Source: Aliarcobacter skirrowii CCUG 10374
GTDB lineage: Bacteria; Campylobacterota; Campylobacteria; Campylobacterales; Arcobacteraceae
Assembly (NCBI RefSeq): GCF_003544835.1
Contig: NZ_CP032099.1
Coordinates: 1,178,001-1,242,000, forward strand
Direction: 5' to 3'
DNA length: 64,000 nucleotides
The notes under the pieces were generated by a model. It saw only the letters and a list, made by a program, of their open reading frames with translations, was not told where the DNA came from and made no database searches. Below are positions 43,694 through 64,000 of the stretch, piece after piece (position 1 is the first letter of the stretch; each line of letters opens with the position of its first letter). Made by a program: the position numbers and the translations under genes.

Positions 43694-43895
43694 AATTTTT
43701 CCAATTTAATTATTTATGAAATTTTGTCTTTTAAGGAGAATAAATATAATAAATTTTAATAAAGTATAAAACTTTTACCCCTTAACCGTTTTATCAAAAT
43801 TAATTTACGATTATTATACTTTAATTTACTTTATTATAGATTTTATGTAATCTTATTTTGTGAAATATAATTAATATTGTTTAAAAGTTTTATGA

Positions 43896-43938
43896 TGGCG
43901 ACCCCAGCATGATTCGAACACGCGTCATTAGGAGGAAA
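43896..43938 (-). repeat. 3' tRNA fragment: candidate attachment site of the island
   Basis: On the minus strand the end is a perfect T-arm (GCGTG, loop TTCGAAT, CATGC), then TGGGGTC, G and CCA, i.e. T-stem, 3' acceptor strand, discriminator and CCA of a tRNA. Before it stands CTCCTAATGAC, which cannot complete an anticodon arm, and no D-arm or 5' acceptor follows upstream. It is therefore a displaced 3' end, as left by tyrosine recombinases that integrate in tRNA genes. The remaining sequence from 43694 to 44079 holds only AT-rich spacer, with short repeats of ATATTTAC near 44040 that could be recombinase arm sites. Confidence 0.7.
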
Positions 43939-44079
43939 TCTTTATGTCTTATATATTCATTTATTTACAATTTTAAATACATAGTCCTATTTATAAGAGT
44001 TTTAAGTTTTTATATATTAGTATTCACTCTATATATTTACAAATATTTACACTAATATTTGACACCTAAAAGGACACCA

Positions 44080-45162
44080 TTGGCAATACCAAAAACTACA
44101 AAAACAATTTATCCAGGAATAAGATTTTATCAAGATAGTATTAAAGGTAAAGTATTTGTTGCTACTTTTACAATCAATAGCAAGAAGTATAGAAAAATTA
44201 TTGGCTATGAGAATGATGAATTTAAAACAAATGCAAAAATTGCATTTTTAAAAAAAGAAGAGTTAAAAAATGATATTTTAAATAACAACTATATAAAAAA
44301 AGATTTAACTTTTAAAGAGCTATTTAAAATATATATAGAACATTTAGAAAATTCTAAATCAGTATCTAGTAGAACAATTTTAACAAAACAAAGCAATTAT
44401 AAAACTCATTTTAAACCTGTGTTTGATAATTTATATATTAATAATATACAAGCTTTTCAGATTCAAAATTTAGCTAATACTTTATTAAAATCAAAAGCTC
44501 CAAAAACTGTTGATAATTTATTAGCTGACCTATCTGCTATTTTTAAATATGCCATGAAAAATAAATATATAACTAATAATCCAGTTTTATTAGTAGATAA
44601 ACCAAAATATGACAATTTAAGAGATTATCCATTAAACATAGATGAATCAAAAAGATTATTTAGAGCTATTATAGATTTTAAAGAACCATTATACAAAGAG
44701 ATATTTACATTTTTACTTCATGGTAGAAGAAAAGATGAAGTTCTTAGTTTAACTTGGGATATGATTGATTTAGAGAAAAGAGTTTATTACATTGGATTTG
44801 AGATTAACAAAGCTAAAAAAAATATGAGTTATGAGATTACAGATGAACTGTATGAAATTTTATCAAATAAAGAAGATAAAACTGGTTATGTTTTTAAATC
44901 TTTAGTAACTGGAGATAAAGTTAAAAATCTAAGATGGGCTTGGAAAAGAATATTGGAAGCTGCTGAAATTACAAAACCTATAAGAATACATGATTTAAGA
45001 CATTTAATTGGTGAAATATCATTAAATGAAACAGATAATAGTATGGAAGTAGTTGCTGCTATTTTAGGACATAGTTCTACTCGCCCTACTCGTAGATATG
45101 CAAAAGTTCAACAAAAAGTAGCAGCTCAAGGATTGAAAAAAGTTTTTGATACTTTGAAGTAA
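44080..45162 (+). CDS. Tyrosine recombinase (phage-type integrase)
   Basis: 360 residues from a TTG at 44080, preceded by AAAGGACACCA (a TTG 7 codons earlier is in frame but lacks this). An N-terminal arm-binding region, a SAM-like core-binding domain (LTFKELFKIYIEHLENSKSV) and a catalytic domain are in order. Catalytic residues are seen: Arg in LHGRRKDEVLSL (about 215), HDLRH (about 303), GHSST and Tyr in TRRYAKV (about 340). It directs integration and excision at the adjacent tRNA fragment. Being next to the fragment and reading inwards is typical of islands in tRNA genes. Confidence 0.93.
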   Translation: MAIPKTTKTIYPGIRFYQDSIKGKVFVATFTINSKKYRKIIGYENDEFKTNAKIAFLKKEELKNDILNNNYIKKDLTFKELFKIYIEHLENSKSVSSRTILTKQSNYKTHFKPVFDNLYINNIQAFQIQNLANTLLKSKAPKTVDNLLADLSAIFKYAMKNKYITNNPVLLVDKPKYDNLRDYPLNIDESKRLFRAIIDFKEPLYKEIFTFLLHGRRKDEVLSLTWDMIDLEKRVYYIGFEINKAKKNMSYEITDELYEILSNKEDKTGYVFKSLVTGDKVKNLRWAWKRILEAAEITKPIRIHDLRHLIGEISLNETDNSMEVVAAILGHSSTRPTRRYAKVQQKVAAQGLKKVFDTLK

Positions 45163-45543: not shown

Positions 45544-46824
45544 TTAATATTTGCGTATAATTTCTTTATATAGATTAATCGCTTCTAATTTAACATATAA
45601 ATTATTTGATAAAAACTTTACATATATTTCTTCTTTTAAAAATAATTCCATTGTTAATGTATTTTTATAGTAATTAAATACTATATCTTTTGCATATTTA
45701 AAAAATATTTCTTCAATATCTTTATATTTAATAATATAATTCATATCAAAAAATACAATTTGTTTATTAATACAAAAAAGTTCTTCATTTATTTTTCCTA
45801 ATTTACAACATTTATCATATTCCAATTTATTTTTAAAATGATATAAAAATTTAACTTCTTCTTTTCCTGAAATACTTTTAAATAATTGAAATATATCTAG
45901 TTTTTCATAATTTTTTTTATTTAAATTATTAAATAAAAAAAATATGTTATTATGAAAATAAAACCTATCAGTTAATTTAACAGCTATTGTAAAAAGTTTA
46001 TATAATGATACAATACAAACCATTCCTATATTAGGAATACAATTTAATACTAAAATATGTCTTTCCTTATTTAAATCCACTATGTCTTCAAACATTTTCA
46101 TCAAATCTTTACTTAAGATACCATCTCCTATAAAAAATTTATCAATTTTTTCATAGTCAATTTTATGTCCTTTGCATATATTGTATAAATTTCTTGATAT
46201 TTCTACAGCTATTTCATCACTAAAATAATCTTTAATTGTATCTACTGCAAACTCATAAGCAATTTTTAGTAAAGCAATTTTAAAGTCTATAGTATTAAAA
46301 GTTCTTTCCATTTTAATTAAAGGTTGAAAACTTATAATTTCATTTGTTTGTTCAGCTAATATTTTATCAATATCAAACCCAATATTTTTTCTTTTTTTAA
46401 TATCAGATAGTATTTTTTTTAGTTTATTCTTATCTGCATAATCTAGTTGTATTTTAATATTTGTTCCATTTGAAATATCTTCTGTACATACCTTTGGAAT
46501 TAGATATGTATTCAGTTTACCTTCAGAATTTAGATTTATTCTAACCTTTGTATCCTCATGATCCATTAGTATATGAGTACCTTCAAATGGATTTGGTATA
46601 TTACCCTTTTTACCTCTTATTTTTAATTCATATCTTAATAAATCAGCTAAATAATGATTTACTAACTTGTTATCTACATTATTACCTAATCCTGAATTAC
46701 ATTCTTTGCAAACAGAAAAAATGTGATAATACCCACCTATAGAATCTGGTATTACATGTTCATCTGAAAACTTATTGCCATTTTTAAATTCATTTTCATC
46801 TATTCTACATATTATACATTTCAT
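45544..46824 (-). CDS. HNH endonuclease-domain protein
   Basis: 426 residues. The N-terminus is an HNH module of the HNH_5 type: CIICRIDENEF, DEHVIPDSIGGYYHI with the catalytic His, and CKECNSGLGNNVD. The remaining 350 residues are helical (FKIALLKIAYEFAVDTIKDY, and more), with no clear family. Stand-alone HNH proteins of this size on mobile elements often act in defence against phage or plasmids, but some are homing-type. It lies directly beside the integrase operon, convergent with the 84-residue gene. Confidence 0.7.
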   Translation of the reverse strand: MKCIICRIDENEFKNGNKFSDEHVIPDSIGGYYHIFSVCKECNSGLGNNVDNKLVNHYLADLLRYELKIRGKKGNIPNPFEGTHILMDHEDTKVRINLNSEGKLNTYLIPKVCTEDISNGTNIKIQLDYADKNKLKKILSDIKKRKNIGFDIDKILAEQTNEIISFQPLIKMERTFNTIDFKIALLKIAYEFAVDTIKDYFSDEIAVEISRNLYNICKGHKIDYEKIDKFFIGDGILSKDLMKMFEDIVDLNKERHILVLNCIPNIGMVCIVSLYKLFTIAVKLTDRFYFHNNIFFLFNNLNKKNYEKLDIFQLFKSISGKEEVKFLYHFKNKLEYDKCCKLGKINEELFCINKQIVFFDMNYIIKYKDIEEIFFKYAKDIVFNYYKNTLTMELFLKEEIYVKFLSNNLYVKLEAINLYKEIIRKY

Positions 46825-47013
46825 TTATTCTCATTATTTATTTCTATTATTTATAATAACTAAAATAATACAATTTAATATTATAAAATCATATTTATTT
46901 TAAAATTAAAATGTAGCTGTTACTTTTATATGAAACTTTGTAATTGTAACTCTGTATTTGTAGCAAAAAGATTTTTCTAGCTATCTTCATATAATGCTTT
47001 CGACTGCTAAGTG

Positions 47014-47151
47014 GTATAAATTTTTTATACCTCCCCATATTTTTTATTTATTTCACCCAGTATAAATTTTTTATACCACCTAGTATAATTTATTTATTTT
47101 GACTAGTATAAATTTTTTATACCACCCAATATAAAATTTTTATACTTCTTT
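47014..47151. repeat. Six tandem 23-bp iteron-like repeats
   Basis: Exactly contiguous 23-base units start at 47014, 47037, 47060, 47083, 47106 and 47129. Units 1, 3 and 5 share GTATAAATTTTTTATACC, then a 5-base C-rich tail (ACCTA, ACCCA, TCCCC). Units 2, 4 and 6 are diverged copies of the same pattern. Each good copy has inverted arms GTATAAA and TTTATAC with a T3 gap. They lie 59 bases before the 135-residue gene, in a 385-base gap (46825-47209) that otherwise shows only AT-rich DNA. They suit an iteron origin or a cooperative operator array. Confidence 0.8.
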
Positions 47152-47209: not shown

Positions 47210-47617
47210 ATGAAGAAAAATAAATCTAAAGAAAATCCAAATAACTATGTATTAGTAGTGGGACTAGAGGAATACAATATTAATTACAATATTGGAATAG
47301 CTAAAATAAAAGAAATTGCTAAAGAAGTTGGAATTGATAATTTTAAAGCAGAAAAAAAACAACTTTATTTTTATAAAGTTTTTGAAGAATTTAAAGACAA
47401 ATTTCAAACAAAATTTATTTCGGTGGAAGAATATGAAAAAACTTACAAAACAGAACTTATGCAAGAGATATATTCTGTACCTTCAATTTATTTTGTAATA
47501 AATCATAAAGTAAATTTTTCTTTTATCAATTGCCACACTGAGAATTTACTAAGAAAAGAATGTAATTACTTTGCTTCAAAAATATTAAAAGATAGTTATA
47601 GATATGCAAAAAGATAA
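47210..47617 (+). CDS. Hypothetical protein downstream of the iteron array
   Basis: 135 residues, no signal or membrane segment, not recognised. Features: a basic start (MKKNKSKENPNNYVLVVG), KIKEIAKEVGIDNFKAE and a C-terminal CNYFASKILKDSYRYAKR. The ribosome binding site AAAGGG is at 47200. The stop overlaps the SprT-like gene by 14 bases. Being the first gene after the repeats, it is the natural candidate for a protein that binds or is controlled by them, but no helix-turn-helix can be asserted. Confidence 0.55.
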   Translation: MKKNKSKENPNNYVLVVGLEEYNINYNIGIAKIKEIAKEVGIDNFKAEKKQLYFYKVFEEFKDKFQTKFISVEEYEKTYKTELMQEIYSVPSIYFVINHKVNFSFINCHTENLLRKECNYFASKILKDSYRYAKR

Positions 47618-48380
47618 ATCTACAACTTTAGAATATTATGAATACTTTCAAGAGATATATAATATTTTTAATAAAGAACTTTTTTCAAATGAGCTTCCAA
47701 ATTGTATTATTACTATCACAAGGCAAAAAAGAGTAATGGGATATTTTAGTCCAAATAGATGGATTAATAGTAAAGGTAAACAAAATCACGAATTAGCATT
47801 AAATCCTTCATATTTCTCAAGCTCTAACTTTATAGAAATATTTCAAACAATTGTTCATGAAATGGTTCATCTTTGGCAATATGAATTTGGTACTCCTTCA
47901 CAAAGAAGTTATCACAATAAAGAGTGGGCTGACAAAATGGAAAGCTTAGGATTAGTTCCTAGTTCAACTGGAGTTCCTGGTGGAAAAAAAACTGGTCAAA
48001 AGATGAATGATTATCCTCTAAAAAATGGAATATTTGAAAAAGTATGTATTGATATTTTTAAACAAGGACTATTTTTAAAGTGGTTTGATAGATATTCAAA
48101 TAAATCTACTTTTATAATAAATGATGAAGAGCTTGATGAAGAAGATATAAAAGAGATGATTGATACGAACAATGAAGAAGAGATATTAACATCTTTATAT
48201 ACAACTATTGGAGATATCGTAAAGGATACTTTACATATTGAAGAAGTTGCCCTGGAAGAGAGTAAAAATAAAAGTAAATATTGTTGCGAATGTGGTTGTA
48301 GTGTTTGGGGTAAAAAGAATTTAGATATTACTTGTAATTTGTGTGGAAGTGATTTTGAGTATATTGAAAATATTAATTAA
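47604..48380 (+). CDS. SprT-like zinc metalloprotease
   Basis: 258 residues. The zinc site IVHEMVHLWQYEF (HExxH) is followed by a third His region YHNKEWADKMESLGL, as in SprT/Spartan-type proteases. GYFSPNRW lies before the site as usual. The C-terminus has a zinc ribbon with CCECGCSVW and CNLCGSDFEY. Eukaryotic Spartan digests DNA-protein crosslinks; bacterial SprT proteins in mobile elements are thought to do something similar but are not well characterised. It overlaps the 135-residue gene and is followed by the palindrome region. Confidence 0.85.
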   Translation: MQKDKSTTLEYYEYFQEIYNIFNKELFSNELPNCIITITRQKRVMGYFSPNRWINSKGKQNHELALNPSYFSSSNFIEIFQTIVHEMVHLWQYEFGTPSQRSYHNKEWADKMESLGLVPSSTGVPGGKKTGQKMNDYPLKNGIFEKVCIDIFKQGLFLKWFDRYSNKSTFIINDEELDEEDIKEMIDTNNEEEILTSLYTTIGDIVKDTLHIEEVALEESKNKSKYCCECGCSVWGKKNLDITCNLCGSDFEYIENIN

Positions 48381-48470
48381 TGTTTATAAATGTTTTTAAG
48401 TATTAATTAATATTAAATAAAGTAATATTTTAACAAGTATTAATTAATATTAATAAATGCTAATTAATAC
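48371..48470. promoter_or_regulatory. Cluster of TATTAATTAATA palindromes before the par-like operon
   Basis: Perfect 12-bp palindrome TATTAATTAATA at 48401-48412 and 48438-48449, both within an identical 19-base stretch starting AAGTATTAATTAATATTAA, plus near copies at 48371 and 48460. The sites overlap or follow the SprT stop and precede the ribosome binding site of the 47-residue gene. A third perfect copy is at 49612 upstream of the RHH gene. Confidence 0.65.
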
Positions 48471-48494
48471 TAAATAATATTAAAAGGAGTAAAT

Positions 48495-48827: not shown

Positions 48828-49481
48828 ATGAAACTAATTACACTAGCAAATTTAAGAAGTGGTGGTAAAAGTTCTATTGCAAGACTTTTAGCAGAGAAGT
48901 TAAATTCAACTATTTTGAATTTTGATAAAAAAAGAGATAGCGAAGCATATAATGCTATCTCAACTATTAATATTCCAGAAAATAAAACTATACAAAGAGA
49001 AGAAAATAGTTTAATTTTAAGAGATAGTAAGACTGAGCAAACAATTACGACAAAATCTGATTACTTGATTTGTGATTTGGGTGGTTATTTTGATGAGAGA
49101 TTACTTGATCTAAAAAGTGATTTTTATATCATTCCATCTTTTGATGATTATGAGAGTATTAGTGAGAGTATGAGAACAGCTCATCTAATATTAAAGAGTA
49201 ATATTAAAGCTAAGATAATATTTGTTTTAAATGGTGCATTTATAACAGATAAAAATATAAAAGAAGAGAAGATAAAAGAGTTTAATGAGCATATTGAAGT
49301 AAATGGATTTATTAGATTTCCTCTTTTATATCTTCCAAAAACAAATTTAATGAGAAGATTAGTTGATGAAGCTGCAAAACAAAAAGAGTTGAAAAATAAG
49401 TTTGAGCAAGAGATTAAATATATTAATATAGATAAGTTCCTGGAAGAACTGATTTGTAATTTTAGAAATGAGCAAATATGA
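48828..49481 (+). CDS. ParA/MinD-like P-loop ATPase (deviant Walker A)
   Basis: 217 residues. KLITLANLRSGGKSSIARLLAEKL aligns to the ParA P-loop but reads LRSGGKSS instead of KGGVGKTT, keeping the GK-S/T core. ICDLGGYFDERL is the Walker B region, and the C-terminal half is a typical short ParA. It would position or segregate DNA, or act as a conjugation accessory. Its stop overlaps a 32-residue membrane peptide (ATGA), and an RHH gene follows, i.e. a ParA plus ParG-like arrangement. Confidence 0.75.
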   Translation: MKLITLANLRSGGKSSIARLLAEKLNSTILNFDKKRDSEAYNAISTINIPENKTIQREENSLILRDSKTEQTITTKSDYLICDLGGYFDERLLDLKSDFYIIPSFDDYESISESMRTAHLILKSNIKAKIIFVLNGAFITDKNIKEEKIKEFNEHIEVNGFIRFPLLYLPKTNLMRRLVDEAAKQKELKNKFEQEIKYINIDKFLEELICNFRNEQI

Positions 49482-49576
49482 AAAATGAATATATTGCTAT
49501 ATCTACTATAATATTTTTAAATTTTTGTATTAGCTGCTTTTTTGTATATCTATTTTTTAAAAAAAATATAGATTAA
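49478..49576 (+). CDS. Single-span membrane peptide (32 residues)
   Basis: ATG overlaps the ParA-like stop as ATGA. The peptide is one hydrophobic helix (IAISTIIFLNFCISCFFVYL) with a basic C-terminal cap (KKN). Coupled start but no independent ribosome binding site. Function unknown. It may be expressed at low level through reinitiation. Confidence 0.35.
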   Translation: MKNEYIAISTIIFLNFCISCFFVYLFFKKNID

Positions 49577-49611
49577 GTTAGTATTTAATAATATTATATA
49601 GTATAATTAAA

Positions 49612-49623
49612 TATTAATTAATA
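49612..49623. promoter_or_regulatory. Third TATTAATTAATA palindrome, before the RHH gene
   Basis: A perfect copy of the same 12-bp palindrome, just before the ribosome binding site AAAGGAG of the RHH gene. With the copies at 48401 and 48438 it suggests one DNA-binding protein, probably the RHH protein, controls both. Confidence 0.55.
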
Positions 49624-49636
49624 TAAAGGAGTTAAA

Positions 49637-49894
49637 TTGGCAAAGAGAAATATTGAACCAGTTAAAATAGATGATTTAAATATATCTATTGAAACAAAAG
49701 AGCTAGAAGAATCTAGTTCTAAAGGAAGACCAAAAAAGTTTACAAAGAAGTTAAATACTCCAGTTAATATTTATCTTTCACAAGGTCAGTTAGCTGCAAT
49801 AGATGAAAAGATAAAAGAGATTGGTTTTTCTGTAAGACAAGATTATTTTAGGAAGCTTTTAAGAGCTGATATTCCTAATTTTGATGAATTGTAA
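49637..49894 (+). CDS. Ribbon-helix-helix DNA-binding protein (ParG/CopG-like)
   Basis: 85 residues from a TTG with AAAGGAG upstream. A flexible N-terminal tail (1-38, with KGRPKKFTKK as a basic patch) is followed by NTPVNIYLSQGQLAAIDEKI and GFSVRQDYFRKLLRADI, the beta-strand and two helices of an RHH fold. Partner of the ParA-like ATPase by position, and the likely ligand of the palindromes at 48401, 48438 and 49612. A partition or autoregulatory role is inferred. Confidence 0.72.
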   Translation: MAKRNIEPVKIDDLNISIETKELEESSSKGRPKKFTKKLNTPVNIYLSQGQLAAIDEKIKEIGFSVRQDYFRKLLRADIPNFDEL

Positions 49895-51715: not shown

Positions 51716-54700
51716 CTATGTCAATTCTATTCCTTTAGATAGAACTTTATCAATCTTTTTAAGCTGCTCTTTTATCACAACAGAGCTTTTTGCTCTATCA
51801 AATATTCCAAGTTCTTTATTAATCACTTTTAAGCTTTTTTCTAATGTATATTTGTAGTTTTCCAATGTAGTATTTAAACTTTTTTTATCTTCTTTTAATT
51901 CATTTTTTAAAAATACTTTTTTAAATTCTTCATAGTCAATATTAAAATTGTTTTGTTTTTTACACTCCTTTACATAGGCATCATCAAGTTTTTTGGGATT
52001 ATCACTAAAGTTTTTTAAACCTTCATTGATATATTTATTTTCAAATTCAACATCTTTGTTTTTTTGAATCAATAAAGAATTATCAAGTATAACTTCTGCA
52101 TCTTTTGATAGTTTTGCTATGTTTTCTATAAAATCTTTTTTTAGATTTTTTAATATTTTTTTATGATCAATCTTTTCAATAATAGATACTTTACTTTTAT
52201 CAACTTCATCAAAAGATTTTTCAATAGCATTTGCTTGAGATAATAAACTTGTTAATCCAGCTTGAGCTTGTAGCATCTTACTACTTGTAGATTTAACTGT
52301 AAAATATCCTATCTCACTATTTTCTAAAGCTTTTAAATGTTTTAAGTTATATAGATTTAAGTCATCCTCTTTTATAAGATTTAAATCTTTTTCTTTAAAA
52401 AAATCACTTTTTTCAAGTGTAAAAGCTTTTATATTTTTAATATTATTAGTTATATTGATTTCTTGTTCACCAGGTATGATAAGTTTAAAATCTTTTTTAT
52501 AGATATTATTCTTCTCAAAATCTACAAAATCAATTTTTACAGTTTTATCACTTATTTGCGTATCTTTAAAATTTTTAAATTTCTCTGGAATCATTCCATA
52601 TTTTGATAATCTTCCAGTTGTAATATTACCTTTTTCAAATGATTTAGTTAATTCATTTTTTGCAAGTTCTGGAAATTTTTTTAATAATTCATTAAATTCT
52701 TTTAGCAGCTCTATATTGTTTTTTAAATCTATTTTTTTATTTGTAAAATCATCTTTTGATATATTTTTAAATTGTGTAGGTTTTATTCCTATTAGTTCTA
52801 GCTTTTCAAAGCTAATCTCTTGTTTATTTATGGCTTCAGTTAATATATTTTTTGAAAAATCTGGAAATGATTTTGTAAATTCTTCAAACTCTTTTTTCAT
52901 ATCTTGAGAGCTAGAAAAATCAAAAACTTTATATGAAATCTCTTTTGTATATTTTTCTAAATTATTTGTATCTACTCCTAAAAACTTTGCATCATTTATA
53001 GATAGATTTGGATTTGTTTTATTTATATACCTTTTAATCTCTTCTAATTTTTGTAGTATTTTATCATCTTGTGTTAATTTCTCTTTTTCATTTATTTTTT
53101 GTCTAAATTTTTCTGCGTTTTTCTCAATTGTTATAGCTTTATTAAAATCAAATATTTCACCTGGTGCAATTTCAATATCTTTTTTATCTTCTACTTCAAA
53201 ATCAATTTCCACTTTATCAAATGGATGTTCAAATTTAACTGTCTCTATATCTATTTTTTTTGTATTTGATATTGGTAACTCTTCACCAAATTCAGAAGAT
53301 ATAATATATTCTTTATCTCTAAGCTCTATTTCAAAATCAATTTTGTTTTTTATAATATCCATTTCATCAAAGTTTTGTGAATGTATATCTATAGCATTTT
53401 CATAATATGATTTTAAAGCCAATCTATCAAACTCATCTAAAGAGTTTAATAATTTATTTGCACTTACAAATTGTCCCGTATCTAATAGATGTTTAATATT
53501 ATTGAAGTTCTCTAATTTTTCTTTATTTTCATTAAATTCTATTTTAAATTCATCGCAAAGCTTCTCAAAATTATCAAGAGACTTAAAATATGATTCAAGT
53601 TCATGTTCATTTTCTGGCATCTCTTTTTGTAAAGCATACTCTGTTTTTAATTTATCTATATAAATATTTACAAACTCTTTTTGATAGTCTTTATTTTGAA
53701 CTTCAATAATCAATTTAAGAGATTCTAAATCATAGCTTTCTCTATTCTCTCCTAATTTTTCCCAAAGAGAAATATTTACCTCTCTTGGTGAAATATTTAA
53801 AATTTCTCCATAAGCTTTTACTGTAATAGAGCTATCAACTTTATATAAGTTTTGTAATTCATCAAAGCTATTTAGATCTTTATTTTCTATAGCTTTTTGT
53901 GAAGCTGTTGAATATTTATCAAAATATTTATCATCTTTAAGATTTTGAATATCTAAACTTTTTAATTTTATTATCTCTTGTTTATAATCAATATCTATAT
54001 TTTTAGATAATTTTTCTAAATCTAACTTTTCTAAATCAATATTTTCAATTACAAATATAGATCCATCTTCTTTTTTTAGTTCAAACTTTTCAAGTTTTGG
54101 AAGATTTGAAGTATTTATTCCTAAAAATTGTGCATCTTTTATACTTAAAGATGGGAAATCACTCTCCAATCTTTTTTTGATATTTAATAGCTTTTCTTGT
54201 TGTTTATAGCAATGTGTAGCTGAAATATGATTATTTGTAAGCTCAATATCTACAGCTTGAATTAAGCTATCAATACCTTTTGAAATAGCTAATGCTTTTT
54301 TTGATTTATTTAAATATTCATTAATACCATTTTCTTTAAATTCAATATCTTTTAAATTTATATTTAATAGGTCAATATTTTCAACTATAGAGCTTTTTTC
54401 TATCTCTTCTACTACAAACTCTTTTTTTGTACTTAAATCACTAGCTAAAATTTTCTCTTTATATTTAATCTCTTTTTCATATGTTATAAGATTTGTTGTA
54501 TCTATTCCTAAATATTTAGCATTTTTTACACTTAATGATGGAAAATCTGAAATAAGTTTTTCTTGAATTTTAGTAATTCTTTTTTGTAAAAAATTGTATT
54601 GGTTTTCTGATATATTCTTTTTTTGTTTATCTAATTGTTTTGTAATATTTATTAAAGTTTTCGATATCTTATTTGCTTTTTGTCTAAGAATTATTTCATC

Positions 54701-56062
54701 TTTTAATTTACTATTATCCTGGTTTAAATTTATATTTTTTAAATCCAATGATTTTAAATCTACCATTTCTATTTCATAGCTTTTATCAACTTCTTCATAA
54801 ATATCTTTAGAAGCTTTTATATCGCTAACTAATACTTTTTCTTTATGTGATATTTTTTTAGTAAAGGTTATAAGATTTGATGTGTCTATTCCTAAAAACT
54901 CTGCATCTTTTACACTCAAAGATGGAAAATCACTCTCAAGTTTTTCTTTAATTTTTATTAGTTTCTCTTCAATTTTTAAACCAGCTTCTTTTTTTACAGA
55001 TTGATATGATTCTATATTTCTTTCTAAAAGTTCAACTAAAGTCAAATTTCTTTTTTGATACTGTTCTACTTTATCAAGAGTCTTATCTTTAAAATTTTGA
55101 ACCATCTGTTTAAGTTGCTCTGCTTCTTGATTTTTTCTTGCTAAATCTAGAGCTTTCATAAGCTCTCTATGTTCAATATTTAATTTTGTTTTTTCAGATA
55201 TAGATATTCTAGATTTTTTAATTTGCTCTTTTACTCTCATAAGTTCCATCTGCAAATAAGCAGAATATTGTCTTATATTTTTATCTTCAAACTTCCAATC
55301 TTTTTCTTGAAGTTTTGCTTGATACCACTCTATTTTTTCTTTTATTCCTTTATAGTTTTTATCTTTATCTCCAAAAAGTCTTTTTCTAATATCTTCAAGA
55401 TGTTTATTTGGATCATCTTTTCTTAGTGTTACAACTTGCTCTAAACCATTTTTTTGCATCTCTATTGCAAATTGTTCTCTAAGATGTTCTAAATCGTTTG
55501 GATTCAATTCTAGTTTTCTATTTTTCCAAACTCCTTTTTTAATTTCCATCATTATAGGTCTATTTTTTATTACTACATGAATGTGAGGATGTTGCGTATC
55601 TATATGAGCTACAAATGTATAGCTAAAACCTTTATCAAAGAATTCTCTTCTTAAAAACTCTCTAGCTACATTTTCTAATATCTCTTTGTTTTTTTCATTT
55701 GGTTCTATGTCTGCTGATAACATCATATGAGTGCTATCTCTATTTTTTCTTTTTGAATCTTCATTTATCTCATCAAAATCTTCTGCCCACTCATTTACAA
55801 GTCCAGCAATAGCATCTTTGCCTTTTATTTTTAAACCATTTTCATCTTCTAGCTCTAATTCATTCTCTTTTCCAGCTCTTGCAATATATTCTAAAGTATT
55901 TCTTGTTTCTTTTGCACCTTCTCTATATCCAATAATTTTAACAACAGATTGTGGATTTTTTGAGATTAAGGCTTTTACATAATTGTAATTGTTATATCTT
56001 AGAGTAGGTAGATCTTTTTCTTCTTTTGCTCTCCACCTGTGCTTATCAATTTCTTCAATCAT
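51716..56062 (-). CDS. Giant MOBP-like relaxase with internal repeats
   Basis: 1448 residues. The N-terminal 250 residues are a VirD2/MobA-type relaxase: YNYVKALISKNPQSVVKIIG, KETRNTLEYIARAG, and the metal-binding HIDTQHPHIHVVIKNRP (about 150-170, three His). The rest is highly charged and helical, including a module found four times with DFPSLSVKDAEFLGIDTSNL-like cores (about residues 385, 515, 650 and 1030). No primase, helicase or ATPase motif is visible. Much longer than usual MOBP proteins. It would nick oriT and lead the strand to the recipient. No strong ribosome binding site; a 12-bp hairpin lies 21 bases upstream. Confidence 0.85.
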   Translation of the reverse strand: MIEEIDKHRWRAKEEKDLPTLRYNNYNYVKALISKNPQSVVKIIGYREGAKETRNTLEYIARAGKENELELEDENGLKIKGKDAIAGLVNEWAEDFDEINEDSKRKNRDSTHMMLSADIEPNEKNKEILENVAREFLRREFFDKGFSYTFVAHIDTQHPHIHVVIKNRPIMMEIKKGVWKNRKLELNPNDLEHLREQFAIEMQKNGLEQVVTLRKDDPNKHLEDIRKRLFGDKDKNYKGIKEKIEWYQAKLQEKDWKFEDKNIRQYSAYLQMELMRVKEQIKKSRISISEKTKLNIEHRELMKALDLARKNQEAEQLKQMVQNFKDKTLDKVEQYQKRNLTLVELLERNIESYQSVKKEAGLKIEEKLIKIKEKLESDFPSLSVKDAEFLGIDTSNLITFTKKISHKEKVLVSDIKASKDIYEEVDKSYEIEMVDLKSLDLKNINLNQDNSKLKDEIILRQKANKISKTLINITKQLDKQKKNISENQYNFLQKRITKIQEKLISDFPSLSVKNAKYLGIDTTNLITYEKEIKYKEKILASDLSTKKEFVVEEIEKSSIVENIDLLNINLKDIEFKENGINEYLNKSKKALAISKGIDSLIQAVDIELTNNHISATHCYKQQEKLLNIKKRLESDFPSLSIKDAQFLGINTSNLPKLEKFELKKEDGSIFVIENIDLEKLDLEKLSKNIDIDYKQEIIKLKSLDIQNLKDDKYFDKYSTASQKAIENKDLNSFDELQNLYKVDSSITVKAYGEILNISPREVNISLWEKLGENRESYDLESLKLIIEVQNKDYQKEFVNIYIDKLKTEYALQKEMPENEHELESYFKSLDNFEKLCDEFKIEFNENKEKLENFNNIKHLLDTGQFVSANKLLNSLDEFDRLALKSYYENAIDIHSQNFDEMDIIKNKIDFEIELRDKEYIISSEFGEELPISNTKKIDIETVKFEHPFDKVEIDFEVEDKKDIEIAPGEIFDFNKAITIEKNAEKFRQKINEKEKLTQDDKILQKLEEIKRYINKTNPNLSINDAKFLGVDTNNLEKYTKEISYKVFDFSSSQDMKKEFEEFTKSFPDFSKNILTEAINKQEISFEKLELIGIKPTQFKNISKDDFTNKKIDLKNNIELLKEFNELLKKFPELAKNELTKSFEKGNITTGRLSKYGMIPEKFKNFKDTQISDKTVKIDFVDFEKNNIYKKDFKLIIPGEQEINITNNIKNIKAFTLEKSDFFKEKDLNLIKEDDLNLYNLKHLKALENSEIGYFTVKSTSSKMLQAQAGLTSLLSQANAIEKSFDEVDKSKVSIIEKIDHKKILKNLKKDFIENIAKLSKDAEVILDNSLLIQKNKDVEFENKYINEGLKNFSDNPKKLDDAYVKECKKQNNFNIDYEEFKKVFLKNELKEDKKSLNTTLENYKYTLEKSLKVINKELGIFDRAKSSVVIKEQLKKIDKVLSKGIELT

Positions 56063-56375: not shown

Positions 56376-57467
56376 TTGGATTTTAAAATATTTTCTACAT
56401 TTACAGGTGCTGGTGGTTTAGACATAGGATTTCATGGAGATTTTGATTTTTTAGGTAAATATTTTCCAAAATTACCATTTACTACAGAGTATGCACTTGA
56501 ATATAATAAAGATGCTATTAATTCATTAGATAAAAATAAAAAATATTTTAAAAATACAAAATTACTACATAAAGATATTACTGAAAATATAGAGAAAGAA
56601 ATTCTAAAGTATAAACCTAATGAATATGATATTTTTTTAGGAGGTTTTCCTTGCGTTACATTCTCTGTTGTTGGAAAACAAGAAGGAATAAAAAATGACA
56701 AAGATGGACAACTTTATGAAAGCTTTGCAAAATATGTAGAGCGATTACAACCAAAAGTTTTTATCGCTGAAAATGTAAAAGGAATATTATCAGCAAATAA
56801 AGGTGAAGCAGTAAAAATTATTAAAAAAAGATTTGAATTAGATGGATATAAATTAAAAATATTTTTAGTAAACTTCGCAGATTTTGGTGTTCCACAACTA
56901 AGAGAAAGAGTACTTTTTATTGGTATTAGAAATGATATAAAAACTGAATTTATTCCACCTGAATTTACACATAAAAATAATCATATTACTTCAAAAGAAG
57001 CTTTTAAAAATTTACCTAAAAATTGTGTCCATACTCAACATTTAAAAGTAAGTGAAAAGGTAGTAGAAAGATTAAAACTTATTCCTCAAGGAAAAAACTT
57101 TAAAGCTGTAGAAAATACTCCATATGCTGTAAAAGGTTTAATGTCAAATATTTATAGAAGATTACATGAAGATGAACCGGCATATACTGTTATTGCATCT
57201 GGTGGTGGTGGAACATGGGGATATCATTTTAAAGAAAATCGTCCTTTAACAAATAGGGAAAGAGCTAGATTACAAAGTTTTCCAGATGATTATAATTTTC
57301 AAGGAAGTACAACAGAAGTTAGAAGACAAATAGGAAATGCTGTTCCTCCAGTAGGTATTTATCCATTTGCACAAAGAATTACAAGCTTACTAAAAGGTGA
57401 AACTCCTCAATACAATCCAAACAATTGTATTAAAGAGTATGATGTAGAGTTAAAAAAGTTTATTTAA
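56376..57467 (+). CDS. DNA (cytosine-5) methyltransferase
   Basis: 363 residues from a TTG with AAAAAGG upstream. Motifs in order: I FSTFTGAGGLDIGF, IV FLGGFPCVTFSVVG (catalytic Cys, with Val where Gln is usual), VI IAENVKG, VIII PQLRERVLFIGI, IX LTNRERARLQSFPDDY and X RQIGNAVPPVG. The target-recognition segment (about 220-280) is small. It is the modification half of a restriction-modification system whose restriction candidates are on the opposite strand. Its 3' end overlaps the last gene of that operon by 18 bases. Confidence 0.93.
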   Translation: MDFKIFSTFTGAGGLDIGFHGDFDFLGKYFPKLPFTTEYALEYNKDAINSLDKNKKYFKNTKLLHKDITENIEKEILKYKPNEYDIFLGGFPCVTFSVVGKQEGIKNDKDGQLYESFAKYVERLQPKVFIAENVKGILSANKGEAVKIIKKRFELDGYKLKIFLVNFADFGVPQLRERVLFIGIRNDIKTEFIPPEFTHKNNHITSKEAFKNLPKNCVHTQHLKVSEKVVERLKLIPQGKNFKAVENTPYAVKGLMSNIYRRLHEDEPAYTVIASGGGGTWGYHFKENRPLTNRERARLQSFPDDYNFQGSTTEVRRQIGNAVPPVGIYPFAQRITSLLKGETPQYNPNNCIKEYDVELKKFI

Positions 57468-58211
57468 GCTTTTTACTAACTCAAAAAAATCTTTTAATTT
57501 TCCTGTTTCTTCATAGTAATTTTCTGCATCCATAGTAGTTTTACCATTTAATATTGCTCCCTTAGGAATTATTTGTTCATTTTTGATTATATTTACAAAA
57601 TCATTATGTGTAATATACCCTGGTATATCATAGCTCCATTTGTACTCATTTATAATATTAAACAATCTTTCTTTATCAACTTCATTACTATATAACAATC
57701 CATTTTGTTTCATAACTGATTCAATATCTTCAGCAATCCTAACTAGGATAATATAATCATAATGGCTTGTTTCTGTTTTTTTTAAATTAGGTATATATTG
57801 AGCATTTGTATCCCAATCTTTAGTTTCTAGCAGAAGAAGATTTCCATAAAACTTTGTTGATTTAATTGAAAAAATTGTTTCACCTAAAGACAAATCAAAA
57901 TCATCCCACTTCCCCAATCCATAAACATTAAAATCTGGTTGAGATAGTTGAAAGAAAGCTTCTTTATTTAGACTAAAAAACTCATTATAAATTGCTAGTT
58001 CAGCGAGTTTTCCTTGAAATGTATTTGTAAAAATTTGTCCATTTTTTCTTTTAAGTTCACCACCACTTCTATGAACTCTATGTTCACCTTGTCCATAACT
58101 CATCTCATAGGCAAAATCAAATACTTTTTGTACTGTATTTTCTTTAAAAGTTCTAATTTCTTTATAAGCTTTTTTATTAGTTACTGTAAACTCATTATTT
58201 TCAATTTTCAT
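57450..58211 (-). CDS. PD-(D/E)XK-like restriction endonuclease
   Basis: 253 residues from an ATG at 58211 with AAGGATA upstream (an in-frame start 13 codons earlier lies inside the previous gene). Features fit a type II endonuclease: SYGQGEHRVHRSGG, then FQGKLAELAIYNEF (Glu of the fold), KWDDFDLSLGETIFSIKSTK where DxxDL ... SIKSTK fits the D-(D/E)xK-like site, followed by LLLETKDWD. Family not named. Last gene of the operon, next to the methyltransferase. Confidence 0.65.
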   Translation of the reverse strand: MKIENNEFTVTNKKAYKEIRTFKENTVQKVFDFAYEMSYGQGEHRVHRSGGELKRKNGQIFTNTFQGKLAELAIYNEFFSLNKEAFFQLSQPDFNVYGLGKWDDFDLSLGETIFSIKSTKFYGNLLLLETKDWDTNAQYIPNLKKTETSHYDYIILVRIAEDIESVMKQNGLLYSNEVDKERLFNIINEYKWSYDIPGYITHNDFVNIIKNEQIIPKGAILNGKTTMDAENYYEETGKLKDFFELVKSLNKLF

Positions 58212-59337
58212 GGGTATCCTTAAATTCTTCAAATTTACCTGTAGAAGCAAAATCTATCTTATATTTAGTATCTGATATTTTAAATACTATAACTGAATCT
58301 ATCCCTATCATATCAAGATATTTTCTATCTACTAAAGTTCCAACTGGTACTTTAAGTACATCTCTTAAAACCCATTTACCTAAAGCTTTATTTGGATTTG
58401 ACATAAGACCTTTTTGTCCAGATTGACACATTTTTGCATTTAATATTTGTCCATCTGGTAATTCTAATTCAAATTTATCATAATTGTTATCAGGGAAAAA
58501 TCCTTCAAACTTTTTATGTATCCATGCAGGAACTGGAATATATAATTCATCTTGGTTTCTATCTCGTCCACCTGCATTCCATTGATTTACACCACTTGCA
58601 ACTCCTGGTTCTAAATCTTTTGAACTTGGAGCATATAAAGGTAAATAGATAAAAGGATAAGTACTTACTTCTTTTAAAATAGATGATTGTGAAACACTTA
58701 AATTTGCTAATACTTCAAATGGATTTTCTAAAATATCTACTTTTATATCTTCTAAGCTATCTTTACAAATAAATCTTTTATATAGAGTGCTTTTTGAAAG
58801 ATTAAAAGAGTACTCATTTATCCCATCTTCAAATTGAATTGTATTTTTATTTCTAACAATCTTTTTAATGCCATCTATTTGAACTTTGTCCATAGGAAAT
58901 TCATATATAGATATTAAATTATCACTTCTAGTTAAACAATGATATATTAAACTATCAACTCCATATCCTTCTAAACAGATATCTAATCTTTTATTTCTAG
59001 CTTGAGAAATAAAATCTATTATTTCCCTATCTGATTTATTTGCATATTCATTTCTAATCGCATTAAATTCTGCAACTTTTTGAAATGTTTTTCCATTTCC
59101 ATGAAGAAAAGTTTTTAATCCAAATCCAATATTTTTTTTCTTTGCATCTATTGAAATATCAGATCTAGATAAATTTTCTGCTTCAAATCCTAAGCAAAAT
59201 ATATTTTCAGCAGCACGATAGTACAAATAAGGTGCTAAACTATCTGAAAATAGTCTTGATAAAGAGCCTGTTAGTTTCAAATATTCTATATATTTAGCTT
59301 TTAATTCTTCATCTTCAATATTATAAAACAAAATCAT
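58201..59337 (-). CDS. NgoFVII-like B3-domain restriction protein
   Basis: About 378 residues. The C-terminal region (GVNQWNAGGRDRNQDELYIP, then PAWIHKKFEGFFPDNNYD, KALGKWVLRDVLKVPVG) resembles the B3-type DNA-recognition domain at the end of NgoFVII-family restriction enzymes. The N-terminal part is helical-mixed (TFQKVAEFNAIRNEYANKSD, ICLEGYGVDSLIYHCL) without the PLD HKD motif, so it may recognise DNA while the next gene cuts. An ATG at 59337 is chosen; a TTG two codons later has better ribosome spacing. Overlaps the endonuclease gene by 11 bases. Confidence 0.55.
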   Translation of the reverse strand: MILFYNIEDEELKAKYIEYLKLTGSLSRLFSDSLAPYLYYRAAENIFCLGFEAENLSRSDISIDAKKKNIGFGLKTFLHGNGKTFQKVAEFNAIRNEYANKSDREIIDFISQARNKRLDICLEGYGVDSLIYHCLTRSDNLISIYEFPMDKVQIDGIKKIVRNKNTIQFEDGINEYSFNLSKSTLYKRFICKDSLEDIKVDILENPFEVLANLSVSQSSILKEVSTYPFIYLPLYAPSSKDLEPGVASGVNQWNAGGRDRNQDELYIPVPAWIHKKFEGFFPDNNYDKFELELPDGQILNAKMCQSGQKGLMSNPNKALGKWVLRDVLKVPVGTLVDRKYLDMIGIDSVIVFKISDTKYKIDFASTGKFEEFKDTHEN

Positions 59338-59341
59338 CCTT

Positions 59342-61813
59342 TTAAAATGGAGATACCATTTCTGCAAATTTAATTAAAATAATGTAATGCTCTCTATTTA
59401 TTTTTTCAGTTGAAAATTCATCTAATGGTATAAATATTTCAAAATCCATATTATTTTTATAATGTTCTTTAAACTTATTTAATTTATCTTCATTTTGACT
59501 CATTACAACAAATTCAACAAGCATTTTAGGATGAAACTTTTCATATTTACTATCATCTAAAATCTCCAAAATTAAAGATTTAAAAATCAAATATCTATGA
59601 ATAAACATATTTATTTTTCTTGGTGTTAATAACCCTACTTTTTTTAATATTTCTTTGATATATTGTACTTCTTCACCTTTTAATACTAAAGATTCTATAT
59701 TTAATTGATTATTAACAAATAAAGGTCTTACATTTCCATCGTTTGATTGGATAATTACAGGAGGAACTCCATCAGAGCCAATTTCGCCAATAATATCTCC
59801 TGATATTTCTGCATCAATATTTAAATCATTTTCAATTAAAGGTTCTTCTATTTCAGGTATTGATTCATCATCTTCATCTAATTTATAATTTAATTTATCT
59901 GTATAAATATCAACTAATTCATCAATATCACTATTATTAAGTTGATTTAGTTTTATCCCCATTAAAAAGAATTTTTCTATATATTCTCTAGTTCCAATAT
60001 TAGTAGGTAATTTTTTATTTAAATATTTATGTTCTATAGCTTTTTCTAATATTCTTTCATCTACTGCTGTTACTACTAATAATCTTGAATTAATTTCTTC
60101 ATTATCAAGAACTAGTTTAAGACCATCAATAATATCTATTAGTATATTTTCATTACATCTATCTAAATCATCAATAAACAAAACTAATTTTTCTTTTTTT
60201 TCATCTATATATGCTTGAAGTAATAAACTTAGTTCTTTTTCTATCTCACTTTGAAAACCCAAATAATTTGAATAATCATTAGTTTTTCCATACATATCCA
60301 TAATATTCTTTGCTGTATGACGAGATATCATATAAAATGAGTATGATTTATACATATAAATCATACCCACTATACCGATAGAACCTATTAACCAACTAAG
60401 AAAGTTTAACTTTTGATCAAAAGGTATAAAAAAAATCCATATCGCAGCCATTAATATAAACATAGAAGAAAATACTAGTTTAGTAGCACCTAACCTTTTA
60501 ATATTTAATGCTAAAATTTTATAGTTTCGTTCTATATTGATAGAAGTAATTATTTTATATAACCATTGTATTCTTTTAGATTTTTCTGCCAATTTACCTT
60601 GATAATTAAGTATTTTTTTTATGAAACTATTATCTAAATATTTTATATCTTTTTCTAAATAACTTTCTAATATTTTTTGATATAAATATGCCCATGTAGC
60701 TTCTTGTCTCTGATATTTCCAAGGTTGAAATTTACAAAAATAGAACTTTTTTTCTTCATTATTTGTATTTAAAATATACTCTTTAACTTTATCAAAGAAA
60801 TATGTTTTTCCTCTTCCCCACATACCAAATATTCCAATAAGAGTTGTTGTATGCTTAGAATTATAATTTATTAAATATTTAGCAAATACTTTAGCAATAC
60901 TAATTACATTTAGTGCAGGTGGTAAAGTATCAATAAGTGATTTATAATTTTCCGTAGCTATTGATTGATACTCATCTTTTACCCAAGGAAATAAGCTAAA
61001 TAATATATTGTTAGATATTTTTGTTATTTCTGCTGAAGCTAACATAATAGATTTTGCTTGTTCAATTGTAATTCCACTTATAGCTTGATTTTGTTCACCT
61101 TTTGTACTAGGACCAACATTTGGTACATCAAACAAATTTTCATATTTAGAAAATATTTTTCTTGTTAATACTTTATTAAAGAAATAAATAAATTGAACAT
61201 CTATTGTATATGACTTATTTATTTTATTATATGGTACTTTTACAACTTTAGCTACCCCATATAAACCTTGAACATAATCAAATTTTATTTTTCCTTTATC
61301 TCCACCAGCAACTATAAATATTAAATTATCTTTTTCCACATCATTAGATAATTGAGTTAAGCCTTCAATCTGAAAAATATCATCTGTATTTTTATGTTCA
61401 AAAAAATTTACTAATTCTTTTATCCATTTTTCTTTGCTTGTTTTAATTGTAAAAAATTTTAATTGTGTAATATAATCTTTATAATTTATAAATCTTACGG
61501 TTATACTTTTAAAAAATTCTTTTGCTTTGTCTATATTTATTATATTATTAATGTCTTCATCATATGCTATCTCATATCTTACTTTATTAAATCCTGGATA
61601 AACTGATATATAATATTTATTGCCATCTAAATCTAGAAAACTTTCAAATCCTTCTGTACTACTGTAAGCATTTTCAGGATTTAGAAGTATTTCTTCATCT
61701 GGAGAATGAACATGTACACTGCATAAGACAGTATTATTATACTCAACGACTAAATAACCATCATTTGGAATAGCATCAATAGTGTCTTCTAAAAAAAAAT
61801 CTTCTTCTTCCAA
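59342..61813 (-). CDS. KAP-family P-loop NTPase with EVE/McrB-like N-terminal region
   Basis: 823 residues from a TTG with AGGGGGGAT upstream. Residues 1-160 are unassigned beta-rich. Residues about 165-258 (VQGLYGVAKVVKVPYNK, then VGPSTKGEQNQAISGITIEQ) resemble an EVE/McrB-N base-reading module. KAP NTPase: Walker A IFGMWGRGKTYF (about 330), two membrane spans inserted (about 430-475), Walker B LVLFIDDLDRCNENIL (about 547). KAP NTPases are membrane-associated STAND-like ATPases frequent in defence islands. It sits in an operon with a restriction system. The EVE call is from pattern only. Confidence 0.75.
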   Translation of the reverse strand: MEEEDFFLEDTIDAIPNDGYLVVEYNNTVLCSVHVHSPDEEILLNPENAYSSTEGFESFLDLDGNKYYISVYPGFNKVRYEIAYDEDINNIINIDKAKEFFKSITVRFINYKDYITQLKFFTIKTSKEKWIKELVNFFEHKNTDDIFQIEGLTQLSNDVEKDNLIFIVAGGDKGKIKFDYVQGLYGVAKVVKVPYNKINKSYTIDVQFIYFFNKVLTRKIFSKYENLFDVPNVGPSTKGEQNQAISGITIEQAKSIMLASAEITKISNNILFSLFPWVKDEYQSIATENYKSLIDTLPPALNVISIAKVFAKYLINYNSKHTTTLIGIFGMWGRGKTYFFDKVKEYILNTNNEEKKFYFCKFQPWKYQRQEATWAYLYQKILESYLEKDIKYLDNSFIKKILNYQGKLAEKSKRIQWLYKIITSINIERNYKILALNIKRLGATKLVFSSMFILMAAIWIFFIPFDQKLNFLSWLIGSIGIVGMIYMYKSYSFYMISRHTAKNIMDMYGKTNDYSNYLGFQSEIEKELSLLLQAYIDEKKEKLVLFIDDLDRCNENILIDIIDGLKLVLDNEEINSRLLVVTAVDERILEKAIEHKYLNKKLPTNIGTREYIEKFFLMGIKLNQLNNSDIDELVDIYTDKLNYKLDEDDESIPEIEEPLIENDLNIDAEISGDIIGEIGSDGVPPVIIQSNDGNVRPLFVNNQLNIESLVLKGEEVQYIKEILKKVGLLTPRKINMFIHRYLIFKSLILEILDDSKYEKFHPKMLVEFVVMSQNEDKLNKFKEHYKNNMDFEIFIPLDEFSTEKINREHYIILIKFAEMVSPF

Positions 61814-61829
61814 AATCCCCCCTACTAAA

Positions 61830-62345
61830 TTAATTTTTTCTCTTTTTTTCCATTTCTTCTACTTCTTCATTAGCAATAAATTCACCTTTAAAATATATTC
61901 CTTCTGGTTCAATTATAGTTGTATTTTTACTTTGTTTTATTTTTTCTAAATGTTTTTGATGAGAATCATCTGATGATACATTATTATGATATTCTCTTAT
62001 TGCTTGTCTTAGTTGTTCATTCATCTCTTCATCAGTTGAAATATTTCCATCTTGGTCATATATTTTACCAATAGATTCATTTGATTGATTTTTTTCAACA
62101 ACTTTTAGCTCTCCATTCTTTTCAATTTCTTCTTTTGCTCTTTTTCTATATTCATTATTTGAATGATTATTTATAATCCAAAGAAGATAATCATTTGGTA
62201 CTTCACTCCATTTTTTACCTTTATATTTCCCAAAATTTATGTGAGTCATAAGATATTTATTATTCCAAGAGATAATTTTTAAAATAACAGCTAAGATAAT
62301 TATAATAGGTACTATAACTTTCAAATATTCAATTATTGATTCCAT
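61830..62345 (-). CDS. Membrane-anchored DUF3820-like protein
   Basis: 171 residues: one N-terminal span (IIEYLKVIVPIIIILAVILK), then NFGKYKGKKWSEVPNDYLLW with the GKY.G..W..VP.DYLLW pattern of the DUF3820 (putative QSregVF) module, then a hydrophilic Glu/Asn-rich tail with EGIYFKGEFIANEEVEEM. The DUF3820 motif occurs beside nucleases and in defence proteins, but no function is fixed. It is 16 bases upstream of the KAP NTPase gene in the operon. Confidence 0.7.
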   Translation of the reverse strand: MESIIEYLKVIVPIIIILAVILKIISWNNKYLMTHINFGKYKGKKWSEVPNDYLLWIINNHSNNEYRKRAKEEIEKNGELKVVEKNQSNESIGKIYDQDGNISTDEEMNEQLRQAIREYHNNVSSDDSHQKHLEKIKQSKNTTIIEPEGIYFKGEFIANEEVEEMEKKRKN

Positions 62346-62358
62346 AATAAGTTTCTCA

Positions 62359-62952
62359 CTAATTTAACTTTATAGCCATACCCTGCATATATACAACAGA
62401 CTTATGAACTGTTTCAACTTTTGAATCTTTAACACCAACTACATGAGAAGTTGAGCTTGAGCTTGATGATAAACTTATTATTCCATCTGCTTTCAAACTA
62501 AAAGCAACTTTGATTAAATTATACTTTGCATTTTCATAATTTACTCCAGAAACTTCTATCAATCTTATTGATTGATAATCTACATTTTCAGGAACGAAAT
62601 TTAATATTGCTAACTCTTTATTATATATATTTAGCATCTTATCTTCTAAGTATTCATTATAAGCTTTTCTACTTCTTTTTCCTATTGAAGTTACGAATAA
62701 ATATAGATATATTAAATATCCTATAATCAAAGCACCAAATAATAGATTATATTCTGTAAAATATATTGCAACAACTATCCCAAGATAGACAAGATTATAT
62801 ATAGGATTAAATCCTAATAAAAAACTATTTTTAAAAGCATAATAAGTGTTATTTATCAATACACTATTTCTTATCTCTTTTGTGTCAATTTTCTTAAGAT
62901 TATGCTTCTTTCTATTGTTTTGTATAATCTCTTTTTCATTTAAGTTTTCCAT
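62359..62952 (-). CDS. Membrane protein with YbjQ/DUF74-like C-terminus
   Basis: 197 residues. Two closely spaced spans (about 54-68 and 72-89) and a C-terminal domain (YNLIKVAFSLKADGIISLSS, then SVVYMQGMAIKL) that resembles the YbjQ-like metal-binding fold at its strand-helix and G-AI-L end. A run of Ser (SSSSSSTS) precedes. The ribosome binding site is AAGGAGAAAAT. Part of the operon between the TOPRIM-like and DUF3820-like genes. Confidence 0.6.
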   Translation of the reverse strand: MENLNEKEIIQNNRKKHNLKKIDTKEIRNSVLINNTYYAFKNSFLLGFNPIYNLVYLGIVVAIYFTEYNLLFGALIIGYLIYLYLFVTSIGKRSRKAYNEYLEDKMLNIYNKELAILNFVPENVDYQSIRLIEVSGVNYENAKYNLIKVAFSLKADGIISLSSSSSSTSHVVGVKDSKVETVHKSVVYMQGMAIKLN

Positions 62953-62972
62953 ATTTTCTCCTTGTATTTATT

Positions 62973-63980
62973 TTATATTGCTCTTAAAGTTTGAGGTACT
63001 AAAACATGAGATGAGATATATTTACCTAAATCATTACAATAATCACTAATGAAACTATCATTATCTATAAAATTTATAAGTTTGTTACTATCAAAACTAA
63101 TAAAATCTTTTAGTATTTTTTTAGAAAAACCTTCTAATAAAATTCCTTCTTTATAAAATTTTTCTTTTTCAATAATAGGACAAAAGTAATCTTTTAAATA
63201 TGGTTTACAAATTATTTGATTATTTGTTTCATCAAATCTTGCTTTACAACTTATTCCATCCTTAAAATCAAAGTATTTTCTAAAAGAAGTGTTTTTTTGC
63301 ATAATTTGATCAATTTTAAAAAATATATGAGTTTTATCAGAATATTTTTCTAAATAAAAATCTCTAGGTAAACAATTTTCTAATTCTAATACTTGTAATA
63401 TATAATATCCTATTTTATAATTTAAATTATTTTGTTTTTTATACTTTTTATCTATGTCAACAACTGCTTGTGCTGTATCTCCATATTTAGTTTGAGAAGG
63501 ATACCTTTTATCACTATCTAACAAACATAAACAAAAACTATCTCCTTCTGTATAAATATTTTCGTACTCTTGATTTATAGTATTACCTCCTCCTCCTCTT
63601 TTAGTGTAGATGATTTTAAATGAATTTAAATTATTTTTTGATTGATAATATTTTACAAATATTTCATAAATAGGTATATCATCACTATTTTCTCCTAAAA
63701 GAATTGTTTTTTGAATTGAAGATGTATCTAAAAATTTACAATATAAAATATTTCTATATTCGATTCCATCTTCTATATAAAGTTTCTCTTCATTTTCAAC
63801 AATATTTATTATTAAATTAAAAAATAATTTAATATTTATTAAATTATTTGGTTTAGCATGATATTTGTAATGTAACAATAATTTTTTAGTATGTTCTGAA
63901 ATATCATCATCATTTAGTAATTCATTTACTTTCTTAGGTGCTATACAAATAATATGTTTAGATTCATTGTATGCAATCAT
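62973..63980 (-). CDS. Uncharacterised TOPRIM-like protein (5' end possibly outside window)
   Basis: 335 residues visible. IIYTKRGGGGNTINQEYENI and FCLCLLDSDKRYPSQTKYGD with the DSD pair, then YYILQVLELENCLPRDFYL, make the layout Glu/Gly-rich turn, D-x-D, LELEN of a TOPRIM-like catalytic core. Proteins of this kind recur in defence islands but this one is not named. The ATG at 63980 has no ribosome binding site and the frame stays open to the window edge, so the true start may be further upstream. Confidence 0.55.
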   Translation of the reverse strand: MIAYNESKHIICIAPKKVNELLNDDDISEHTKKLLLHYKYHAKPNNLINIKLFFNLIINIVENEEKLYIEDGIEYRNILYCKFLDTSSIQKTILLGENSDDIPIYEIFVKYYQSKNNLNSFKIIYTKRGGGGNTINQEYENIYTEGDSFCLCLLDSDKRYPSQTKYGDTAQAVVDIDKKYKKQNNLNYKIGYYILQVLELENCLPRDFYLEKYSDKTHIFFKIDQIMQKNTSFRKYFDFKDGISCKARFDETNNQIICKPYLKDYFCPIIEKEKFYKEGILLEGFSKKILKDFISFDSNKLINFIDNDSFISDYCNDLGKYISSHVLVPQTLRAI

Positions 63981-64000
63981 TATGTTGTCAAAAAATTTAT

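Follow-up and report, generated by a model that had tools for sequence, protein, structure and literature searches.

A candidate plasmid-like replication origin in an ICE family of Campylobacterota

The six-unit, 23-bp repeat array analyzed here is probably, judging from comparison of related elements, the set of semi-palindromic iterons of a plasmid-like replication origin (oriV) that belongs to an ICE family of Campylobacterota. The array looks like a docking site for the element's own candidate initiator, rep365, and this suggests that the excised element could copy itself like a plasmid. Whether and how an ICE replicates autonomously is usually worked out for one element at a time; here a whole family is given a proposed origin and initiator. 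Searches of open-licence full texts found no such system in Campylobacterota and no paper on this ICE family. A cis module and a trans protein that diverge together would be ready material for specificity swaps, and the module of array and adjoining block can serve as a marker for finding more elements.

The array and the ICE that carries it

The array sits in a complete ICE, 42.7 kb long and flanked by 46-bp tRNA-Glu repeats; the Arcobacteraceae genome around it is a single contig of 1.97 Mb. The window, by which we mean the whole 64-kb stretch of DNA that was analyzed, ends in the middle of the ICE, and the remainder is given in extended coordinates (Table 1); attR, at extended coordinate 86607, lies outside the window and adjoins an intact tRNA-Glu. 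The element was assigned as an ICE by its att repeats in tRNA-Glu, its integrase, its relaxase and VirB4/B10/B11/VirD4-like genes common to its relatives, the T4SS genes being named from sequence features and from the gene order common to these relatives. Its contents also include an HNH gene, SprT-like, ParA-like and ribbon-helix-helix (RHH) genes, cargo and an SSB gene, and one operon encodes an excisionase-like 69-aa protein (TIGR01764, HTH_17; Xis69), a 148-aa protein (h148) and rep365.

Table 1. Features of the array and of its ICE, in window positions unless marked as extended.
Feature	Position	Strand	Remark
Six-unit 23-bp array	47012..47149	.	proposed semi-palindromic iterons; intergenic
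Array unit starts	47012, 47035, 47058, 47081, 47104, 47127		
Unit 1	47014..47030	.	full palindrome GTATAAATTTTTTATAC
Unit 3	47060..47076	.	full palindrome
Unit 5	47106..47122	.	full palindrome
Unit 6	47129..47145	.	near-full palindrome ATATAAAATTTTTATAC, one base changed
Conserved block adjoining array	46883..47011	-	CTACAWAYACADAGTNNYAATW...AGTAM on - strand; beside array in related elements
Very A+T-rich stretch past block	46810..46910	.	80-bp windows 0.90-0.93 A+T
attL	43895..43940	-	46-bp copy of tRNA-Glu 3' end, identical to attR
Tyrosine integrase	44059..45162	+	PF00589, 4e-17
135-aa gene	47210..47617	+	between array and SprT gene in window's copy only
SprT-like metallopeptidase gene	47604..48380	+	directly downstream of array in G015, G026
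ParA-like NTPase	48828..49481	+	50% to ParA-like proteins of G079/G082; no Pfam match above cut-off
RHH (NikA-like) protein	49637..49894	+	disfavoured rival binder
MobA/VirD2-type relaxase of ICE	51716..56062	-	PF03432, 4.8e-11
rep365	70.6 kb (extended)		365-aa Rep candidate in xis operon; beyond window

The sequence-only reading had described six contiguous 23-bp units in perfect register, and this was confirmed beyond all shuffles, the null being 500 dinucleotide shuffles of 46.5-48.0 kb. At lag 46 the best 80-bp stretch, at 47014, has 65 matches against a shuffle maximum of 46, and at lag 23 over 100 bp there are 70 against 52. The same reading had given both 7-bp arms to every unit and had the strong and degenerate copies alternate, which holds in part. 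Units 1, 3 and 5 share GTATAAATTTTTTATAC with the arms GTATAAA/TTTATAC and unit 6, which carries ATATAAAATTTTTATAC instead, nearly has both, but units 2 and 4 are degenerate with at most one recognisable arm each; the strict alternation runs through units 1-5 and stops at unit 6. Because of the two degenerate units, the repeat is stronger at 46 bp than at 23 bp (TRF scores 172 vs 124). A span of 140 bp holds three exact 7-3-7 palindromes, for an expectation of ~0.04. As in an iteron origin, the array is made of several direct repeats in helical phase in non-coding DNA, and an outer, C-rich linker appears to be part of the half-site (GGNNKTAWWW by eye).

The conserved block is ~100 bp long and lies on the array side away from the SprT gene. 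Past it, the A+T content of the rich stretch is at or above the element's 99th percentile (0.90), and this stretch is a possible unwinding region, its richness being unequal among the relatives. No DnaA boxes beside the iterons were obvious by eye across the members. The block pattern gave four matches in 397 genomes of the phylum, all within the window's family, and no match in viral contigs; in genome_contigs it matched two Aliarcobacter MAGs and two unrelated contigs (Capnocytophaga and Endomicrobia), and the last two matches were taken as chance. Comparison of the relatives shows that the array and the adjoining block accompany the ICE family as one cis module.

The cis module in related elements

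That the repeats are an iteron-like array of an integrated element, as the sequence-only reading had it, is favoured by comparison with relatives: related elements were checked for the repeats and have them. Twelve genomes have the array and block, in most cases at a distance of 100-200 bp from the tRNA, and the block is present in 11 of the 73 family genomes with an att flank examined, among them all six genomes that have rep365. In G015 the same array is found at 93% DNA identity and in G026 two array units are kept. Diverged half-sites with the same ~23-bp spacing and alternation, together with the block, occur in G010 (twice), G016, G032, G078, G079 and G082; the array is shorter in G022 and reduced to one unit in G029. 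Two or more array classes exist inside one genus with the same layout. Of the five elements that were scanned whole, four have the class palindrome nowhere outside the array, and the fifth, G010, has one extra distant copy with one mismatch. Aliarcobacter butzleri plasmids with an SprT gene (L024, L025) have no array, and among the PLSDB plasmids neither the array (distant blastn) nor rep365 (tblastn) was found. Unrelated ParA-RHH cassettes are seen at the same place beside the array (L112 863-1996, L018 3692-4861, L106 812-1711), as if partition modules were swapped there among elements.

In G010 the ICE is found twice in one chromosome, over 42,023 bp and with no substitutions (L026/L067/L068 vs L027/L113/L114), once in tRNA-Glu and once where leuB begins, at a secondary site with GGATTTCC-like sequence. 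These two copies are compatible with a circle that persisted or was copied, but re-entry by transfer would account for them too. In the same genome several tRNA-Glu end fragments lie in a row (~1230029, 1272070, 1319555 and 1333136), which suggests that several elements have integrated in tandem at a single attachment site. In many genomes of the family tRNA-Glu is a hotspot.

The neighbouring 135-residue gene had been put forward as the possible binder of the repeats. It was rejected because two close relatives (G015 and G026) retain the array with the SprT gene directly after it and no such gene at that spot; no convincing homologue of the protein was found among 104 family genomes. The gene is an orphan inserted between the array and the SprT gene, and it opens with codons similar to those with which the SprT gene begins.

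rep365 as the candidate initiator

The earlier statement that the visible element has no Rep protein stands within the window, where none was seen because the window ends in mid-element, but the same ICE has a Rep candidate, rep365, ~23 kb from the array. Intact elements share Int, Xis69, h148 and rep365. It was found that six of the 104 family genomes have rep365, and all six have the array and block; in three of them (G016, G079 and G082) rep365 led to the module, which was predicted and then found. A wider search gave a rep365 homologue in G414, from another family, whose ICE lies in tRNA-Met and repeats the layout of tRNA, arm repeats, an alternating ~23-bp palindromic array (GTAACTACACAGTTAC) and the block; this block match is weak alone (E 0.024) and is supported by its position, by the array and by similarity seen by eye. 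The array prediction from rep365 was correct in all four new genomes. Conversely, five genomes with array or block have no detectable rep365, of which at least two (G015 and G026) are decayed, and weak partial rep365 matches occur in G484 and G498.

In a Pfam scan rep365 matched HTH_36 with E 0.0024, below gathering, and DUF5997 with 0.0088; no named initiator family was above the cut-off, RepA_N (PF06970) did not match, and there was no NCBIfam match. A PDB sequence search with rep365 gave nothing relevant. The AlphaFold2 model of the protein has a mean pLDDT of 78 and a pTM of 0.42. Its N-domain is best matched by DnaD, with Z 8.4, a value near 8 being one that can also reflect a common arrangement; other rows among the top 15 are Geobacillus DnaB (6.9), RctB (6.0) and the plasmid initiator/Rep-DNA structures 4pt7 (5.6) and 5kbj (5.5). 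Foldseek alone was uninformative (E > 0.4). Based on this model, we infer that rep365 may be a DnaD/RepA_N-like winged-helix initiator.

The more alike two elements are in the recognition helix of rep365, the more alike are their half-sites (rho 0.67, Mantel p 0.0135, n=7; p 0.022 in the six-element set), whereas the C-terminal part of rep365 shows no such correlation. For Xis69, h148, Int, the CI-like repressor and ParA no correlation with the array that differs from chance was found, the tests of Int, CI and ParA covering four to five elements. Among the ICE proteins tested, rep365 alone thus seems to diverge in step with the repeats, and given the small numbers, the hand-aligned half-sites, the several tests and the near-copies G079 and G082, this co-divergence is supporting evidence and not proof.

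Alternative functions and the proposed mechanism

One alternative, rather unlikely in our view, is that the array is an accessory recombination site, where an excisionase or other factor would bind and shape the att region for integrase-mediated excision. An Xis-like gene does belong to the conserved core and, in every relative examined outside the window's close group, the module starts at most ~200 bp from the tRNA, past integrase arm-like repeats (GGTGTC, GGTGATAC and GGTCATAC); in the second G010 copy and, at a contig end, in G016 a tRNA fragment takes the place of the tRNA. However, the array of the window's ICE, like that of its close relatives, is ~3 kb from attL, beyond the integrase, while the arm-like repeats stay at the ends, and neither Int (rho -0.62) nor Xis69 (rho 0.17) tracks the array.

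It is unlikely that the array is instead a centromere (parS) for the ParA-RHH pair, even though every intact member carries this pair and, in G032, G016, G079 and G082, it ends right beside the block and array. The RHH protein is disfavoured as the cognate binder: the window and G010 have different arrays although their RHH proteins are 84% identical and, in the other direction, unrelated RHH proteins go with a shared array class in the pair G032/G079 and again in the pair G010/G016. By this double dissociation the site does not follow RHH, and ParA fails likewise. Moreover, the window's ParA and RHH genes have upstream repeats of their own: a second A+T-rich set of TATTAATTAATA type lies at 48369-48483, upstream of small ORFs and the ParA-like gene, and at 49576-49632, upstream of the RHH gene. 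An array similar to these repeats is seen in G010 (L026 19776-19900), and they are likely the operator or centromere of the ParA-RHH pair.

A cooperative operator or promoter of an SprT-led operon, or a leading-region regulatory element, would fit the window group and G010, where the array is just upstream of the SprT-like gene. This reading is very doubtful, as in G032, G016, G079 and G082 the ParA-RHH genes point towards the module and no SprT gene follows it, and each element has the palindrome at essentially a single place. Chance repeats or a site for a host regulator only are hardly credible and already largely excluded: weak palindromes are common because the window is roughly 70-80% A+T (4.7 chance palindrome matches are expected at 3 mismatches), but the array is far beyond shuffles and conserved in relatives, and two or more array classes of one layout within a genus fit a conserved host binder poorly.

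The preferred reading, that of an origin served by rep365, can be compared with known systems. In RepA_N origins (pSK41, pTZ2162 and the Vibrio PLE RepA; PMC5703833, PMC7145576) the iterons are, like the array, direct repeats of semi-palindromic build, and their inverted repeats are described as converging on a poly-A or A/T tract (PMC7145576). RepA_N initiators have a DnaD-like winged-helix N-domain, which rep365 may also have, and Vibrio PLE, too, is an integrating element; the HTH_36-containing initiator of the staphylococcal pPR9 drives autonomous replication (PMC5703833). Unlike these systems, rep365 has no Pfam RepA_N match, and the array is found close to the attachment site and not by the rep gene, with full sites and half-sites alternating at 23-bp intervals beside a conserved block. 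Among integrative elements SGI1, which replicates after excision and has its own initiator and iterons close to xis, sets a precedent for such an origin, yet its iterons are four GC-rich 17-bp direct repeats, its initiator is of RepA_C type and it needs an IncC helper, whereas the ICE here has its own T4SS (PMC7433901). SXT/R391 and ICEBs1 are ICEs that replicate after excision, reportedly from oriT with the relaxase in R391 and with a single-strand origin in ICEBs1, neither of them with an iteron array and its own initiator (PMC4489591, PMC4595007).

A mechanism that fits the proposed origin would begin with relief of a repressor, after which Xis and rep365 would be made together and the ICE would excise. 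Dimers of rep365 would fill the full palindromes on successive turns and then, cooperatively, the half-sites of the degenerate units; the neighbouring A+T-rich DNA would melt, the host replisome would be loaded and the circle would replicate after excision. With excision and replication switched on together, we propose that the circle would be maintained and copied in the course of transfer. The integrated element has, in most members, the array at one end and initiator, xis and int at the other, and in G010 and G032 (B- and C-type) excision would bring rep, xis, int, attP and array to within ~3-5 kb of one another. A more speculative possibility is an undescribed Campylobacterota type of initiator and origin, in which integration parts the replicon and only excision reunites these components (~3-7 kb), such that firing is linked to excision. 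In the window's ICE rep365 and the array stay ~23 kb apart, so contiguity would not be required.

Other parts of the ICE may be described briefly. A candidate IncP-like nic site, TATCCTGC, lies at extended 86227 with five 21-bp direct repeats, between a MobC-like gene and attR. Candidate oriT regions at this place, in which 21-bp direct repeats come after the IncP-like nic motif TATCCTG[CT], were seen at G000 extended 86227-86392 (L015 3227-3392), L017 14270-14432 and L060 7428-7590. The cargo from 56376 to 64000, and on to extended 68556, contains by sequence reading AAA/SMC-like ATPases and a KAP-like NTPase along with a gene resembling C5 methyltransferases, and this block looks like a restriction or defence island.
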